This document shows positions 34,732-64,000 of a stretch of DNA of 64,000 nt, one piece after another (position 1 is the stretch's first letter; each line of letters opens with the position of its first letter). The stretch comes from Lantana camara (lineage: Eukaryota > Streptophyta > Magnoliopsida > Lamiales > Verbenaceae). A program made the translations under genes and the position numbers. The DNA lies in contig CM074858.1 in NCBI GenBank assembly GCA_037501455.1, positions 44,203,001 to 44,267,000 on the forward strand, given 5' to 3'. The notes beneath the pieces are model-generated. The model did not search any database. It saw only the letters and a program-made list of their open reading frames with translations, and was not told the DNA's origin.

Positions 34732-34934
34732 GCGGTTGCAAAACCGGGCTCTAGTGTCGTGTGGGTCTGTCTAGGTCGTACGGCTTAGGATAATGTGACT
34801 TTTGATTATGTGCATGTGTGCTTTGAGTATGTGATTACTTGACTAATTGATTACTTGATTATTTCTTTAAATTGTATACATATTCATACCCTAATTCACA
34901 TGCATCCATATTGCTTGAATTTGTGAATTTCAGG

Positions 34935-37900
34935 ATGCCTCCAAGAAGACATAACAACCGTGAACAAACCCCTGACTTGAATGAACCGGCTCTACATAAT
35001 GCACCTCCGCCACCACCTATGAATGCGGAGAATATTGTTCAAGCCCTACTCAATCAACTCCAAAACAATCAAAGGGGTAATGCCAATCCGGGTGAAGGAC
35101 AAGATATTTCAGCAGTATATCGGGACTTCCGGAACAACAACCCTCCAAAGTGGTATGGAGGTGATGATATTAAGGCGGAAGAGTGGTTATCTGAGATTCG
35201 AGGTATTTGGGAGATATGTCCAGGAACTTCTCAGGACAAGGCTGTTTGCACCGGGCGAATTATTCAAGGGCCAGCGGCTATTTGGCTTAGGAGTGTGAGG
35301 TCCAAGCTTGAGAGAATGGGTATGGAATTCAACTGGGAGACGTTTGTGCAGGAATTCCATGAGAAATATATCCCTCATAGTGCACAAGAACGTCGCCTCC
35401 AAGAGTTCTCCAATTTGAGGCAAGGCAACCGGACGGTGGAGGATTATATTTTGGAGTTTGAAAGGTTAGCTCCGTATGCTACTCACATCACCGACCATGA
35501 TGATCATAAGGCCCGAGCATTTCTTCATGGACTTCGCCGGGATATTCAAGAAGCTTTACAAGCTACTAATGTGAGTACTTGGGCCAAAGTTACAAAGAGG
35601 GCAATACAAGTTGAGGCCCAAATGGCTCGGTTGAAGCCTCCACCTTTCTCTTCTACTCGGGTTGCGGGATCAGGTTCTGGATTGGGTAAGAGGCCCATTT
35701 CTTATGCTCCACGAGCTCCTATCTCACCGGCTTTTCGTCCCCAGGGTTTAGGGAACAAAAAGCCCCGTATTACCGGTCCCATAGTACCTCCTGTTGCTCC
35801 AGTTCGACCGGCTCCAGCTCAGGGACCACCTGTTTGTTCTTATTGTCAGGGGAGACATCCGGTGGAGAGGTGTTGGAAGCTTCAGGGCAAATGCTTTGTG
35901 TGCGGGTCCTCTGATCACTTGGTGAATGCTTGCCCGAATAAGAGGCCGGTTGTGCAGGCACGTGTTTATGCTTTGGACGGAGAGGAGGAAGCTGCTGATG
36001 TCGACCCAAACGCCGTGATAGAAGGTACAATAAACATTCATGGCATATCACTACATGCATTGTTTGATCCCGGGGCTACGCATTCATTTATTTCCCGGGA
36101 TATTGTTGCTTCTTTGCCTTTACTTGATGATTTATCTGCGCATGTGTATGTGGTGAATACTCCTTTGGGAGGATCTGTGGAAGCTGACAGGGTGTTCAGG
36201 GAGTGTCCGGTGGTGTTTGAGGGTCGAGTTTTTCCTGCAGACTTGATAGTTCTACCGTTGAAGAAGTATGAGGTTATTCTTGGTATGGATTTTCTCTTCA
36301 GATACCGAGCTCAGTTGGACTGTCATGAGAAGAAGGTTGTGTTGGGGACAGTGGTCTTTACGGGTGAGAGGTTGAAGTCCAGCCCGTTTGTGTCTTTTAT
36401 GGAAGCAAGTAAGCTCCTCCGGGACGGTGCGACAGGTTTTGTGGCCTATCTTTTGAATAAACCGAAGGATCAGGCCAAACTTGAGGAGACAGAGGTCGTA
36501 AGTGAGTTTCCCGATGTTTTCCCTGAGAATTTGGGTTCTTTGCCACCTGATAGGGACATCGAGTTTGTAGTCGACCTTTATCCTGGAGCTGAGCCTTTCT
36601 CTAAGACACCGTATAGGATGGCTCCTGCTGAGTTGAAGGAGTTGAAAACGCAGCTGGATGAGCTTTTGACTTGCGGTTACATCCGTCCGAGTACATCCCC
36701 GTGGGGTGCTCCCGTATTATTTGTAAAGAAGAAGGATGGGACTTTGAGGATGTGTATAGACTACCGCGAGTTGAACCGGATGACAGTGAAGAATAAGTAT
36801 CCTTTACCTCATATCGAAGAGTTGTTTGACATCTTGCAAGGGTCGCAGGTGTACTCTAAGTTAGATTTGAGGCAAGGGTATTACCAACTTCGTATCCGGG
36901 AAGAGGATATCTCTAAGACTGCGTTCAATACCCATTATGGACACTTCGAGTTTGTAGTGATGCCGTTTGGGTTAACTAATGCTCCAGCCGTGTTCATGGA
37001 TATGATGCACCGAGTGTTTAGACAGTATCTTGACAAGTTCGTGGTCATTTTCATAGATGACATCTTGGTGTATTCTAAGTCTGCAGAAGAGCACGCATCT
37101 CACCTCAGAATTGTGTTGGAGACCCTTAGAGAGCACAAGCTTTATGCTAAGTTCAGCAAGTGCGAGTTCTGGCTCGACAGAGTATCTTTTCTGGGTCATA
37201 TTATTTCAGGTGAGGGGATTGAAGTTGATCCTTCCAAGATTGAGACCGTGGTCCAGTGGGAAAGACCGAAGAATGCCTCCGAGATAAGAAGTTTTCTCGG
37301 GTTAGCGGGTTACTATAGGAGATTTGTGAAGGATTTCTCCAAGATTGCTTACCCGTTGACTCGATTAACCAAAAAGGAGGTGAAGTATGAGTGGGATGAT
37401 GGGTGCGAGAGAAGTTTCCAAACTTTGAAGGAAAGATTAACTTCAGCACCAGTTCTTACCCTACCCGAGGGATCCGAGGGTTATTCAGTTTTTGCAGATG
37501 CTTCTAAGGAAGGACTCGGATGTGTATTGATGCAAAATGGCCGAGTGGTGGCCTATGCTTCTAGGAAGTTGAAGGAACACGAGAAGAACTACCCCACTCA
37601 TGATCTTGAGCTTGCAGCGGTTGTGTTTGCTTTAAGGAAGTGGCGTCATTACCTCTATGGGACGACTTTCGAGATATTCACGGATCATAAGAGCCTCAAG
37701 TATCTTTTCACTCAAGAGGAGCTGAATAATAGACAGAGGCGTTGGATGGAATTCTTAGAGGATTATGACTGCACGATTCAGTATCATCCGGGCAAGGCGA
37801 ATGTCGTGGCAGATGCTTTGAGCAGAAAAGCAAGTGTTTCAGGTTTGAGTGCAGGGTCTTCAGGACAGGATTCGACAGTTTTGGTTTCAGTGGCTCGGTT

Positions 37901-39335
37901 AGCTAACATCTCAGTTCAGCCGGATTTGAAACAGAGGTTGTTGGATTCTCAGGCTTCGGATGCAGAGATTCAGAGATTAGTGGTTCGGTCTAGGATAGAC
38001 CCCGAGACGAAGTTTGGGTTTGATGATTCCGGTTTGTTCAGGTTCAAGACCAGGGTTTGTGTCCCAGAAGACCTCAAGAGGTTAATACTTGAGGAAGGAC
38101 ATCGTTCTGGATATTCCATTCACCCCGGTGGTACGAAGATGTACCGAGATTTGAAGGAATACTTCTGGTGGAACGGCATGAAGAGAGATGTCGCGAACTT
38201 TGTGAAGCGATGCCTCACGTGTCAAGTGGTGAAGGCAGAACACCAGAAACCGGGAGGAACCCTCCAACCACTTCCGATTCCGGAATGGAAGTGGGAGCAA
38301 GTGACTATGGACTTCGTGTCCGGCTTGCCGAGATCAAGAGGAGGTTATGATGGAATTTGGGTGATAGTCGACCGATTGACCAAGTCTGCTCATTTTCTCA
38401 AGGTGAAGATGTCTTACAAGACTCCGAAGTTGGCCGAATTGTATTGTAATGAGATTGTGAGACTTCATGGGGCGCCTGCTAGCATTGTTTCAGATCGTGA
38501 TCCGAGGTTCACAGCTAAGTTTTGGCAGGATCTTCAGAGTAGGTTGGGTACGAGGCTCAATTTCAGCACCGCTTTTCATCCTCAGACAGATGGACAATCA
38601 GAGAGACTGATTAAGTATTTAGAGGATTTGTTGAGGGCGTGTGCTTTGGATTTCAAGGAAAAGTGGGATAAGCATTTAGCTCTGGTTGAGTTTGCCTATA
38701 ACAACAGTTTTCAGACTTCTATTGGTATGGCTCCCTACGAGGCACTATATGGAAGGAAGTGTAGATCGCCTCTATTTTGGGACTTGGAAGATTGGCGGTG
38801 GACTGAGGAGAACAAGCTCGAAAGAGCTACACCTCGAGAGAGGTTGGATAAGACCACTGCTAAGGTTAAATTGATTCAACAGAGAATGAAGGCAGCTCAG
38901 GACCGTCAGAAGAGCTATGCGGATAAGAGGAGAAGACCCCTTGAGTTTGAAGTCGGAGATAAGGTTTTCTTGAAAGCATCTCCGAGAAAGGGATTTTCTC
39001 GAATAGGTCGAGGTGGGAAGCTTAACCCGAGATACCTTGGACCTTTTGAAATCCTTGAGAGAGTTGGAGAAGTGGCGTATAGGTTGGACCTACCGCCGAG
39101 ATTGACCGGGATACATAATGTGTTTCATGTCTCGCAGCTTAGGAAGTTTTATCCCGAGGAATCAACTATTCTCCCTGTTGAAGAGGTACAACTTGAGACA
39201 GATTTGACGATAGTAAGGCACCCGGTTGAGATTCAAGACCGGAAGATACAAGTGTTGAGGAATAAACAGATTCCCTTGGTCCGAGTTCTTTGGAGAGATC
39301 AGAAATCCGAAGAGTCTACTTGGGAGACTGAGTAG
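34935..39335 (+). CDS. gag-pol: Gag-Pol polyprotein of element A (1466 aa)
   Basis: I chose ATG 34935 (MPPRRHNN) because it follows a 3' splice-like TTTCAG/G and matches the start in D; an in-frame ATG at 34872 would add 21 residues. Domains in order: gag core (about 55-185); two zinc knuckles (301-313 and 320-333, the second [14 protein letters not shown]); protease with catalytic Asp378 in [10 protein letters not shown] (Pro where Ser/Thr is usual); reverse transcriptase with Asp644 and the Asp708-Asp709 pair in FIDDILVYS; RNase H with Asp855; integrase zinc motif His1056, His1063, Cys1093, Cys1096; integrase core Asp1126, Asp1187, Glu1223 (DD35E); C-terminal chromodomain-like segment (about 1430-1466). 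The products would form particles, copy the RNA and integrate the DNA; chromodomains of this group are thought to steer insertion into heterochromatin. A TAG at 39333 falls inside the chromodomain, about 12 codons before the end seen in D. Confidence 0.95.
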
Positions 39336-59733: not shown

Positions 59734-60192
59734 TGTTAGGAATAGTGCCCTAGAAAGCCGATTGTAAATCCGCTTTATGCTTTTCCTTATTGTAATCACA
59801 GACAATCTTTGAATGAAATAACGAATTGAGGCAGCACTTCTTCATATGCTCTTGTTTGGTATGCATTTACTTTAGCTGTGCATGTATGAGAACTCCCCTA
59901 ATCCTGATGACTTTAGGACTCTACCATTTAGGTGAAATGGTTCATGAAACGTGCCCTATATCACATAAGTCATGATTAGTAAAATACTCCAAGCCGATGA
60001 GTCCTACAGACAGTGGGAGTGTCAACCTGACTCCTCTAAGGCTTGCTTGTGGGATCACGCCCTTAAGAAGGACCACCTTGTTTCATGGAGGTGCAAAGTG
60101 TATAGTTGATACGTGCGTGATACATGAGGGTGCTTACTTTAATAAGTAAGTTCACTGAGGTGCCCCGTGTGAGAACATTCCTAAATGGGAAA

Positions 60193-60224
60193 GGAAGTTT
60201 CTATTTTAGGAAATAGAAACTTCC
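60193..60224. repeat. Perfect 14-bp hairpin in F LTR
   Basis: Arms GGAAGTTTCTATTT (60193-60206) and AAATAGAAACTTCC (60211-60224) enclose a TAGG loop. It lies upstream of the presumed start of transcription. Confidence 0.9.
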
Positions 60225-60881
60225 AGATTAGGAAATATCTCACGAGTCATTGATGTGATTAATTGATCCTTAAGACTTGAGGTTCCTTGTCACTTTATGA
60301 GTTAACTCTGTAGTCTTAGGTATAAGCTTTAAAGGGTGTCGCCTTACACAACTGATTCAAGGCTTATGCTGGGGCTGCACAAGTGATTCATGAAAGTGAA
60401 TGAGAATCAAGAAAGGACCTACACTTGCATTTTCAAGGTGATCTCTTATTGTGTAAGTCATTCATATGCCATATGGAGTCCTTGGCCTAGGCAGTAGATC
60501 AAGACATCAAGAAAAGGGTTTCTTGGATTGAGATCAAATGGATATGAAATGCACTTAGCTTTAAGACCGGATTATTAGGGTTCTGATTATTCTCTTGCCC
60601 TAGATCTTGGTTGAGAGATAGTAAGGAGGAGGATTGTATCTCACATGAATCAATGACTTAAAGGTTCTGTCGAATCCGAACATTCTAATTCAGCTAGGGT
60701 TAAAAACCTGTTGCTAGACTATGGTCGTTTAATCTGTGGACTGATTAATTAATTAGTGAATTAATTAATTAGGGTCACTGCTAATTGAATTGAGAACCTA
60801 GAGGGTCACACACAACAACTTGGTTACATTAGTTGAGGCTTTAAAATGATTAAACGAGTTAATCGGGCCAAGAGGGTTCCA

Positions 60882-60948
60882 CACGTGTCAACCACACGTG
60901 TGGCTCACGTGAGTGACACGTGTCATTGTGACACGTGTCTCACACGTG
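60882..60948. promoter_or_regulatory. Array of six G-box (CACGTG) sites in F LTR
   Basis: CACGTG starts at 60882, 60895, 60906, 60917, 60932 and 60943, with spacings of 13, 11, 11, 15 and 11 bp. Most sit in ACACGTGT, which fits ABRE/G-box cores bound by plant bZIP and bHLH factors. The array lies about 340 bp upstream of the TATA-like box. Regulation is inferred from the motif. Confidence 0.75.
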
Positions 60949-61289
60949 TGTAAATATATGTGTATATTTATTTATGTGTTAAATAATTAATGTGATTAAT
61001 TATTTAATAGACTTTGGTTTAATTTTGAATTAAAAAGAAAGTCTTATTTTGGAGAAAAATAATCTAGTTAATTAATTATGAATTAATTAATTAGATAAGA
61101 TAAGTTATTTATTTTAAATAAATAAAGTATAAAATTATCCAAAAATAGTTTGGATATTTTTAGCTCTCTTGAAAGTTGATTTGAATTTGAATTCAAAGTC
61201 AAAGTCAAAATTACTTGATGATCAAGTAATATGAGAGAGAGACCAAAACCCTAGCCCATAAGGACTAGGATTTTCGGTCCTCCCTTTAT

Positions 61290-61315
61290 TATAAATAGGG
61301 GAGCTCGAGCTCCCC
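61290..61315 (+). promoter_or_regulatory. TATA-like box with adjoining 18-bp palindrome in F LTR
   Basis: TATAAATA (61290-61297) is followed without a gap by GGGGAGCTCGAGCTCCCC (61298-61315), a perfect palindrome. The start of transcription would be expected just after it. Confidence 0.6.
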
Positions 61316-61685
61316 TTAGAGCTAATTGGTAATTCTTTTGGTTCATGTGTTGAATACCATCCTTTCTCCAAGATAAACGAAACCCTAGGTTAAGCCTAAA
61401 CACTAACTAGAGAACTAGCATCCTTACTAGTTAGATTGTAGTCAAGTTGGTGGACTATCTCTAGAGAGCTTCAAGTTAGAAGTTTGAAGATTCGAGCTTT
61501 ACCAAGGAGAGGGGATCAAGCCGCGAGAAGAGCGTTCTTGGGTGGCTTGAAACGCTTCAAGAAAGAATAAAAGAAAAGTAAGTTTCTTATCTCTACGAAT
61601 TTGGTTACACGATTGCGAGTCCAGATCCTTTTGTTGGGAAATTTTTTAAAATTCCGCTGCTTTCTGATTCGTGTTTTCCAACAAG

Positions 61686-61701
61686 TGGTATCAGAGCCAC
61701 C
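61686..61701 (+). other. Primer-binding site of F
   Basis: TGGTATCAGAGCCACC matches the initiator tRNA-Met complement at its first 12 bases. It lies 3 bp after the LTR end. Confidence 0.92.
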
Positions 61702-61972
61702 TCGTAAATCGTGTTTCTGAATCGTCTCAATTATTCTGAATTTGTTAGAAATTCTTAGGCTTAGATGCGAATTAGGTATTCATGAGTTCTTTTAGAAAGC
61801 CTGAATTACGAAACTGTAATTTTTCTTGAATTTCTGAAATTGTTTTCTTGAATTGTGTTTTTGAAAACCATTTTGATTGAAATCTATTTAAATCGAATTT
61901 TTCTGATTATGGATTGAACCGGGTTTTGGAGAAACCCAAAAATACGAAACGAGACAGGAACAGAATGGGCCT

Positions 61973-62186
61973 GGGCGTGCTAGAACGTCGCACGCCCAAG
62001 CCCTGTCACCGCCGCCCAGCCCTCCCGCATCCGTGCGGGAGGCCTCTTGCCCGCCTAGGCGCCCCCCTCGCCTGTCCCGCAACCGTGCGGGACAGCCGCC
62101 TGCTCCTCCCGCAACCGCGCGGGAGCGCCCGCCCAGGGATGGGCGGGACTGCCTGCCCACGCCGTATGCCTGCGCGCAAGGGCGCA
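61973..62186 (+). other. GC-rich chain of six stem-loops in F leader
   Basis: Stems: GGGCGTGC/GCACGCCC (61973-61997), CCTCCCGCA/TGCGGGAGG with loop TCCG (62021-62042), CTGTCCCGCA/TGCGGGACAG with loop ACCG (62072-62095), CTCCCGC/GCGGGAG (62106-62125), CCCGCCCA/TGGGCGGG with loop GGGA (62128-62147), and a weaker TGCGC/GCGCA (62171-62186). All are perfect. The second to fourth share CCCGCA-type arms. Confidence 0.8.
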
Positions 62187-63450
62187 CGCTGGCGGCAATC
62201 GCTACCGGCTGTGCGCAGCACTGGCGCGCGCCTACTTCGCGTTCCTGTGTGGCGGGCGGGCGATCCCGCGTCGTCTCGGGCCCGTGTTTTCGTGTTTCTC
62301 GTGTTTCGTATTTTCGGTCCTAAAAATCCCATTAAATTTTATTTTAATTTTATCTTTTAAAATCAATTTTGCTAAAATAAAATTATTTTAAAATTTTGAT
62401 TAAATTGGGATTTTTGAGAAGTTGATCGATTTAAATTTTGAGAAAAATTGCAAACTTTATTTTCTGATAATATTGAATGAATAAAATTATTAATTTTCAG
62501 AAATTAATTGGAATTTTATTAGTCTATTGTTTTTCGGGTTTTATTGAAAAGGGTCTTGAACAAGAATTGCATCTAAGTCGTGTTTTAAGCTATTAGAGCT
62601 TAAAGCGAGAATTTTAATTTATTGGTTAATTTAAATTCTTGCAAATGCATGTTAGGTGATCATGGGTTTAGACTTATGTATGGTTTTAATTTATGCACAT
62701 GGATGGTTTAAATTGGGGTTGGAGCCCTATAGTTGCGTTTTTCAATTGAGGTTGGAGCCTCACTTATGTGCGTACTGTTATGTGATTTATTATGTAGCTT
62801 TCCATATTACTGTTTTTGAGGCCGGGGTATGCCCCGTGTAATTGTCTAAGGCCAATATGAAGATTGAGCCTTATTACTTTATGTCTTTTTCTTTTTATTG
62901 TAATTTGAGAGTAGAGATAGGTGGTGAGGTTTTATTTTCATTTTGGAGACAATGCACCCATGGAGTAAGATGGACCACATTCAAGTAACAAGGAGGCCAT
63001 AAGTGAAGACCCCTCAAAATGTTAGGGAGGGGAATCTCAATTGTAAAAATGTAATAGAGATAGGGCTCGTATTTTGTTACCGCTTTCCCTTATGTGATTT
63101 AAACTGTTTATGTGGCATGTTTGTTAGAACTTGTGATTGTGGAGTGGCTCCCACATATCACGCATAAGATAGGTAGAACCCATGATCATTAGATGTTAGT
63201 ATCATGCTAGGACATGTTATCTGTTTATGTGCTTGTTTGAAATGCATTTAAGTGTACTTGCATTAATCAAGACTAATAAAATTGGATAACATATATGTTG
63301 GTGAAGTCGAACAGGACAACTCTCCGGTTGATTCGAAAATTCCCATTAAATATTAAGCTAATTTCGAACAAATAGGTGTTTAATTCGAGATGCAAATTTT
63401 GAATTAAATTCCTAGCATTCCATCAATAGGTTTTAAGTTTAGTAAGTGAA

Positions 63451-63791
63451 ACTAGTTATTGTCCGCGAGTCGTGGGATAGCTAGTGGAGCTTATTAGTTC
63501 TTAGTTACCTAATTGATCATTTTAAATGATCAATATTTCATGATCAATTTTAGCAAGGGCGATGTCCGCGAGTCGTAGGTCGTTCGAACTAAGTTTTGAT
63601 CATGATCTTATGATTGATGAGTCTAGCTTAACGCCTAAGTAAATATGGATGTCGCACGAGTCGTGGGTCCATATTGAAAGATAGGTGATGCAAAAACAAT
63701 TACTAAGAGTTCTAAAGGTGTTAGAATTGATAAGTTGTACCTACCTAGGGTTTTACTTAGAATGTCCGCGAGTCGTGGGTTCGAGGTAAAA
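63451..63791 (+). other. Four hairpins presenting one 17-nt module in F leader
   Basis: The module TGTCCGCGAGTCGTGGG (or close variant) occurs at 63460, 63563, 63650 and 63763. Flanks pair in each case with different sequence: ACTAGTTAT/ATAGCTAGT, GGGCGA/TCGTTC (with G-U), AATATGGA/TCCATATT, TTTTACTTAGAA/TTCGAGGTAAAA (one mismatch). Inside the module CCGCG can pair with CGTGG around an AGT loop. Similar structure with unrelated stem sequences points to an RNA element. Confidence 0.85.
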
Positions 63792-63985
63792 TGCCTAGGA
63801 TCTTAGTACCCATTGGGAAACGTGTTCCTCTTAGATCTTTGGGAATTATAGATCTTTGAAAAACAGTGGGAGCTACATTTGATTAAAGAACTTATCTTTT
63901 GTATATCGTTATAATTCAGCATGCTCACTAGTTCTCAGTTTAACCATTTAGGTCGTAGATTCTGTGATTCTCTACGTGTTTTGAA

Positions 63986-64000
63986 ATGGCAACCAAAAAC
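63986..64000 (+). CDS. Possible gag start of element F (cut by window end)
   Basis: ATGGCAACCAAAAAC (MATKN) is the last sequence in the window, in the place where a copia gag would begin. Only five codons are visible, so this is a positional guess. Confidence 0.4.

Follow-up and report, generated by a model that had tools for sequence, protein, structure and literature searches.

Signals by which retroelements select their genomic RNA sit between the primer site and gag, and cis-acting hairpins in a retroelement leader are a known kind of element. In Ty1, the copia element of yeast, the structured 5′ RNA comprises a pseudoknot and palindromes and is preferred by Gag, no fourfold identical apex being described in the accessible parts of the two sources (PMC8396678, PMC4974528). 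Ty1 Gag favours Ty1 RNA carrying the packaging signal in competition, and its affinity for different RNAs is high and similar, with in vitro differences explaining packaging in part (PMC8396678). Among RNA phages, MS2 bears packaging signals with a common apical motif and a 5′ bulge, a short and variable motif that several stem-loops present to the phage coat protein (PMC6281560). In plants, the copia element BARE carries dimerisation and packaging signals that are described as conserved in BARE2 as well (PMC3735527), and the Arabidopsis copia element Evade has a functional RNA structure, the ENE, a triple helix in the 3′ UTR that involves the poly(A) tail (PMC12501189). Short motifs, nearly always GC-cored, are repeated in the non-coding parts of Sireviruses, likewise plant copia elements, as DNA palindromes located in the LTR and before env (PMC2829016).

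The element examined here, F, is a plant copia element at the end of the window, i.e., the whole stretch of 64,000 bases of Lantana camara DNA that was analysed. Like Ty1, F has a structured 5′ RNA and, like MS2, it places one motif with a 5′ bulge on several stem-loops. It differs from Ty1 in the fourfold use of an identical apex, and from MS2 in that this apex is 17 nt long and nearly invariant and is a candidate site with a putative reader. The likeness to BARE is by description only, and F resembles Evade, with its ENE, in that the transcript of a plant copia element carries an RNA structure. With the Sirevirus motifs F shares a short motif repeated in a non-coding part; unlike those palindromes, the F apex lies in the leader and its symmetry resides in variable flanks with G·U pairs, and the leader location and G·U-paired stems ruled out the module as a Sirevirus repeated motif. 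In the literature searched, within the accessible parts of the sources, no such array was found among plant copia leader structures, packaging signals or conserved RNA structures. The main text of a 2025 survey of plant structured RNAs, in its available portion, contains no word starting with transpos, copia or LTR (PMC12218528), and four module and LTR sequence pieces had no match in paper text from which most subscription papers are absent. The form, four rods sharing one 17-nt apex, appears to be new.

The 5′ LTR of F (TGTTAGGAATAG...TTCCAACA; positions 59734–61684, forward strand, 1,951 bases) was read from the sequence, with a short inverted repeat at its ends, and no second copy of it was detected in the 64,000-base window. 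It is followed by an exact match to a primer binding site (TGGTATCAGAGC; 61686–61697, forward strand), which we take to be of the initiator Met tRNA type; such a site is not specific to copia elements. The leader extends for about 2.3 kb (61698–63985) from the primer binding site to the gag start (MATKN...; 63986–64000, forward strand), which runs on past the window end. The frame at the gag start, MATKNPLVSILESNKLTGPNYSDWLRNLKIIL, reaches a stop after codon 71, and farther downstream a different frame holds an open stretch with a match to PF14223 (Retrotran_gag_2) at 1.8e-18. Public protein matches to F gag carried PF14223 in 20 of 22 cases and all named organisms were plants, the best match showing 58% identity across 46% of the query. 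Because of the PF14223 match and the PF14223-bearing plant proteins, the earlier label of a copia element was right, and F, judged by its gag, is a Ty1/copia LTR retrotransposon. The insertion in the window is a broken copy, and in a motif scan of its three forward frames, over 6 kb from just before gag, no pol motifs turned up that would show the copia order protease-integrase-RT-RNase H. In three other copies inspected, open frames of 408–467 codons follow the array, two of them with a CCHC knuckle (CFHCGKAGHWRRNC). Other features of the leader include a 70% GC island (61940–62320; fold z-score −5.57) with three related hairpins (approximately 62018–62045, 62069–62098, and 62105–62128) that have CCCGCANCCGNGCGGG in common and paired flanks differing by eye, possibly a second repeated hairpin family. 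A mid-leader hairpin at 62853–62962 is strong on the sense strand (z −4.99 vs. 0.07 on the antisense strand). Elsewhere in the window, an uninterrupted Ty3/gypsy gag-pol frame of 1,494 codons (34851–39335) is flanked by stretches identical across 300 bases, probably LTRs.

The module TGTCCGCGAGTCGTGGG, of 17 nt, occurs in four copies inside the 526 bases upstream of the copia gag start, with starts 103, 87, and 113 bases apart, which confirms the fourfold repeat before gag at 87–113 spacing given in the original prediction. Copy 2 has one mismatch and copy 3 is 18 nt long owing to one inserted base; ungapped matches with up to three mismatches numbered 3, vs. 0.01 expected by chance. When the four hairpins were aligned, 15 columns of the apex were invariant and none of the flank columns was. 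Each hairpin, all on the forward strand, is a long rod composed of an inner stem, a small internal loop, and an outer stem. Hairpin 1 (63441–63496; apex 63460–63476; MFE −23.0) has an inner stem of 9 pairs and an outer stem of 7, hairpin 2 (63543–63600; apex 63563–63579; MFE −14.3) has 6 and 5, hairpin 3 (63632–63687; apex 63650–63667; MFE −18.5) has 8 and 6, and hairpin 4 (63744–63800; apex 63763–63779; MFE −25.6) has 11 of 12 inner pairs and 6 outer ones. The inner counts of 9, 6, 8, and 11 of 12 reproduce those first reported; the rods are longer than noted by the outer stems of 7, 5, 6, and 6 pairs, and since these continue past the small internal loops, the array spans approximately 63441–63800, ending about 185 bases upstream of the gag ATG. 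The spacer that separates hairpins 1 and 2 holds a near-perfect 23-nt palindrome (63512–63534).

Within the apex, the details depart somewhat from the initial description. The first T, regarded as unpaired in all copies, can form a U·G pair with the last G of the module, and this pair is at an invariant position in all four copies; a 5′ bulge is present in copies 1 and 4, as a GU bulge rather than a single T. The predicted apical loop is AGU in hairpins 1, 3, and 4, as in the AGT loop first proposed, and has 5 bases in hairpin 2 of the window, whose apical stem contains a C·A mismatch. Among the aligned arrays, the G to A change of this copy is seen in the window alone, and at this place most of the others have a perfect module. 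The change of an apical G·U to an A-U pair in copy 3 was seen as described, and it is the only pairing-keeping change inside the module, next to one broken cell in copy 2; the evidence for covariation therefore sits in the lower stems. In folds of 586 and 2,288 nt, pair probabilities of the inner stems were 0.86–1.0, except in hairpin 4, whose inner stem has one mismatch position with a neighbouring pair at 0.65. An exact complement of the apex (7–12 nt) that could support long-range pairing was found neither in the LTR nor in the leader.

To the covariation test the structure was given, comprising 15 pairs and 60 cells, with 500 shuffles and slid-partner controls. Standard pairs filled 90% of the 60 cells, a value as high in 0 of 500 shuffles, and fell to 31–45% when the partner was slid by one to three columns. 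Changes on both sides affected 9 of the 15 pairs (reached by 2 of 500 shuffles), and the covariation score was 0.722 vs. 0.244 ± 0.077 in shuffled data, where 0 of 500 shuffles reached it, with a maximum of 0.211 in the slid controls. Likewise, pairing scores of each apex's own flanks were 31, 35, 25, and 35.5, vs. 0–23 for the 12 crossed combinations, and their sum of 126.5 (vs. 45.5 ± 12.0) was matched by none of 200,000 random quadruples. Taken alone, each own-flank score was met by 0.1–1.7% of 20,000 sampled window positions and, within the leader, by 0.1–5.2%, copy 3 being the weakest. The flank test is not circular because it is the apex, not the flanks, that defines the repeat. These values bear on the reading that flank pairing is accidental or that the array is a relic without function: the shuffles and random quadruples speak against it, as does the complete set of hairpins in 32 of the 33 whole arrays, even though those loci were chosen by the module, and the neutral look of stem changes within the family (see below) is in its favour. 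On balance, chance or relic is strongly disfavoured, and we regard it as the least probable of the explanations weighed here.

Strand bias was assessed with composition-corrected z-scores on both strands, and for hairpin 2 also against 200 shuffles. The sense strand scored lower than the antisense in three of the four rods: hairpin 1 (−5.20 vs. −1.86), hairpin 2 (−1.35 vs. −0.07), and hairpin 4 (−4.68 vs. −3.46). Hairpin 3 showed no preference (−3.54 vs. −3.50), and the stability of hairpin 2 in the window is unremarkable, with 23 of 200 shuffles folding as well. Hairpin 3 and the base composition are relevant to a DNA-level explanation, according to which the repeats would be DNA binding sites or chromatin signals with the dyad symmetry of DNA, as in Sireviruses, whose palindromic repeats nearly all have a CGG-CCG core in the accessible account (PMC2829016). 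The repeats are indeed CpG-rich within an AT-rich region, the modules holding 12 of the 17 CpGs of 63441–63815, and the absence of strand preference in hairpin 3 would suit such boxes. DNA boxes, however, give no reason for four unrelated flank pairs to be complementary, the stems contain G·U pairs, which are not DNA pairs, with U·G at the invariant position in all four copies, and three of the four rods favour the sense strand; we consider this explanation very improbable. A selected sense-strand RNA structure in the copia leader, in contrast, is well supported, and by prediction and covariation the region between the primer binding site and gag contains a structured RNA.

The module (up to 2 mismatches) has at least 14,174 plus at least 14,603, i.e., at least 28,777, matches in the 1.27-Gb genome, these counts being lower bounds because of repeats, vs. 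121 + 133 = 254 for a reversed-pattern control in the same genome. We took 39 stretches from C1 among 100 module matches listed, all chosen for having the module. In the first set, 19 of 19 arrays had all four hairpins, and an additional one, L028, had three. The second set, with 72 matches, included 13 of 20 arrays seen whole, each with four hairpins; the remaining seven (L080, which is the L028 array, L084–L087, L098, and L099) were cut by stretch ends and show two to four. Four hairpins were thus present in 32 of 33 whole arrays from loci picked by the module. The arrays are 94–98% identical to F, L085 aside, and since they are so alike and the match count is high, the F family is, by inference, large and fairly young. 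In L028 (1–3017), unrelated sequence stands where hairpin 4 is expected, and a 467-codon open frame with a zinc knuckle is retained, making this copy a natural test of whether three hairpins suffice.

The original prediction took absent flank covariation among other copies, or a module in single copy without pairing flanks, as evidence against it; the module proved to be spread genome-wide, and flank covariation was absent across the F copies. For this comparison 39 of 40 arrays, F included, were aligned, L085 being dropped for poor alignment. By the majority letters of these 39 arrays, 78 of 78 counted pairs were standard. Among distinct stem changes, 31 keep and 34 break pairing, with 33.4 of each expected from the spacer mutation spectrum (p 0.69), and no double stem changes were seen among the 39 near-identical arrays. 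Stem changes within the family look neutral and neither refute nor support the structure; the test has little power because the copies are very similar and dead insertions are expected to drift. A count of cells over 21 sequences was more favourable (one-sided changes, 36 kept and 21 broken; two-sided, 3 and 3) and was discounted because inherited changes were counted many times. In the same 21 sequences, variation was 1.2% in the apex, 2.3% in the stems, and 2.4% in the spacer, the lower apex value proving nothing because the loci were picked by the apex. The claim of a selected RNA structure draws on the covariation and flank pairing of the four hairpins, the sense-strand bias of three rods, the genome-wide spread of the module, the arrays seen whole, and the position before a copia gag, and gains nothing from the stem changes among the F copies.

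When other copia families were searched, the module was found in none of 30 loci, a sample from 150 scored among 16,542 candidates, whose gag was 20–31% identical to F gag over the longer matches, seen in 27 of the 30. For the exact apex with G or C as the closing base on each side, the genome gave no match. A scan for three-copy hairpin families, which found 19 of 19 positive controls and gave 2 positive among 80 window segments, detected none in the 1.56-kb upstream stretches of the same number of other copia loci (0 of 30); its k=10 pair version was not specific (42 matches vs. 43 in the reversed control). A four-copy model recovered its own copies in the window at 40.5–46.3 bits, as follows from its construction, with no additional match there, and no Rfam 15 family exceeded its gathering score in the 64,000 bases. 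Twenty viral contigs with an exact 16-mer reached at most 21.9 bits and look like chance; the two-module pattern had no match in viral contigs, and because neither the gypsy protein of the window nor a pattern for copia RT retrieved a relative from them, these contigs were taken as uninformative for plant copia elements. In bacterial contigs, a two-module match in Nocardioides was rejected as two pieces of 14.8 bits without stems. Since no diverged relative was found and the F copies lack covariation, the evidence for covariation comes from the four hairpins of a single family.

These searches bear on who would read the apex. Repeats of one motif are usual for host-read transport and stability elements, and constitutive transport elements are host-read RNA elements of other retroelements. 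A host protein might likewise recognise the F apex to export unspliced RNA from the nucleus, silence splicing, or affect stability, the more so as the Evade ENE, in the available text, acts via host RNA turnover (PMC12501189). With no Rfam match in the window, and with the module missing from 30 further copia loci in this host, which is unexpected for a common factor, we find a host reader unlikely. The absence of the module from the copia loci compared fits a reader specific to the element, and thus Gag, better than a host factor, though it is no proof.

The main rival concerns translation, because the leader holds 49 ATGs in 2,288 bases, with upstream frames (61698–63985) of up to 131 codons. 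The array, ending some 185 bases before the gag ATG, could help ribosomes reach gag past this long, AUG-rich leader, whether through internal entry, shunting, or regulated stalling. An A in front of three of the four modules creates a further ATG, which is odd for a path-clearing element, and a binding site accounts better than a single ribosome-entry fold for identical apices on rods that are interchangeable; translation control is, in our estimate, as improbable as a host reader. Dimerisation through kissing loops is also unlikely, since the AGU triloop that is predicted lacks self-complementarity, and no self-complementary apical loop occurs in hairpins 1–4 (predicted AGU, or 5 bases in hairpin 2).

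The most likely reading, which we hold to be about as probable as not, is a multivalent recognition site on the genomic RNA, for which Gag packaging is the leading guess. The invariant apex and exchangeable stems suggest that the apex is the part read and the stem its presenter, and the presence of four copies at intervals of about 100 nt suggests that binding is multivalent. Directly observed are the repetition, pairing that persists while the sequence changes, the sense-strand bias of three rods, the genome-wide spread of the module, the complete array in 32 of the 33 whole cases, and the adjacent copia gag; a protein that reads the apex, its identity as Gag, and packaging as the result are what we infer. 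The array would act as a cis-acting element in the genomic RNA of this abundant copia retrotransposon, each rod displaying one recognition apex (closed by a conserved U·G pair, with a GU bulge on the 5′ side, a short stem, and the AGU triloop), with lower stems that would merely present it and whose sequence would be free to change while pairing is kept. The element's own Gag, with the CCHC knuckle found in other copies, would bind the apices multivalently and then select its genomic RNA for the virus-like particle, withholding that RNA from translation. Arrays in other copia lineages would fit a packaging role, and none of the 30 upstream stretches had one. The neutral look of stem changes within the family, the failure of the above searches to find a diverged relative, the similar affinity of Ty1 Gag for different RNAs, the ordinary stability of hairpin 2, and the missing strand bias of hairpin 3 also count against this reading.

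Little is known of how plant LTR retrotransposons single out their own RNA from among thousands of related ones. More tentatively than the recognition site itself, we propose that a private fourfold RNA address, one aptamer on four exchangeable rods, may have evolved in a plant copia lineage, and that Gag may read it multivalently to tell its own genome from those of co-resident copia families. With its short apex repeated on exchangeable stems, the array is a compact candidate for this address that can be tested, and it offers a search model for elements or transcripts with the same apex.
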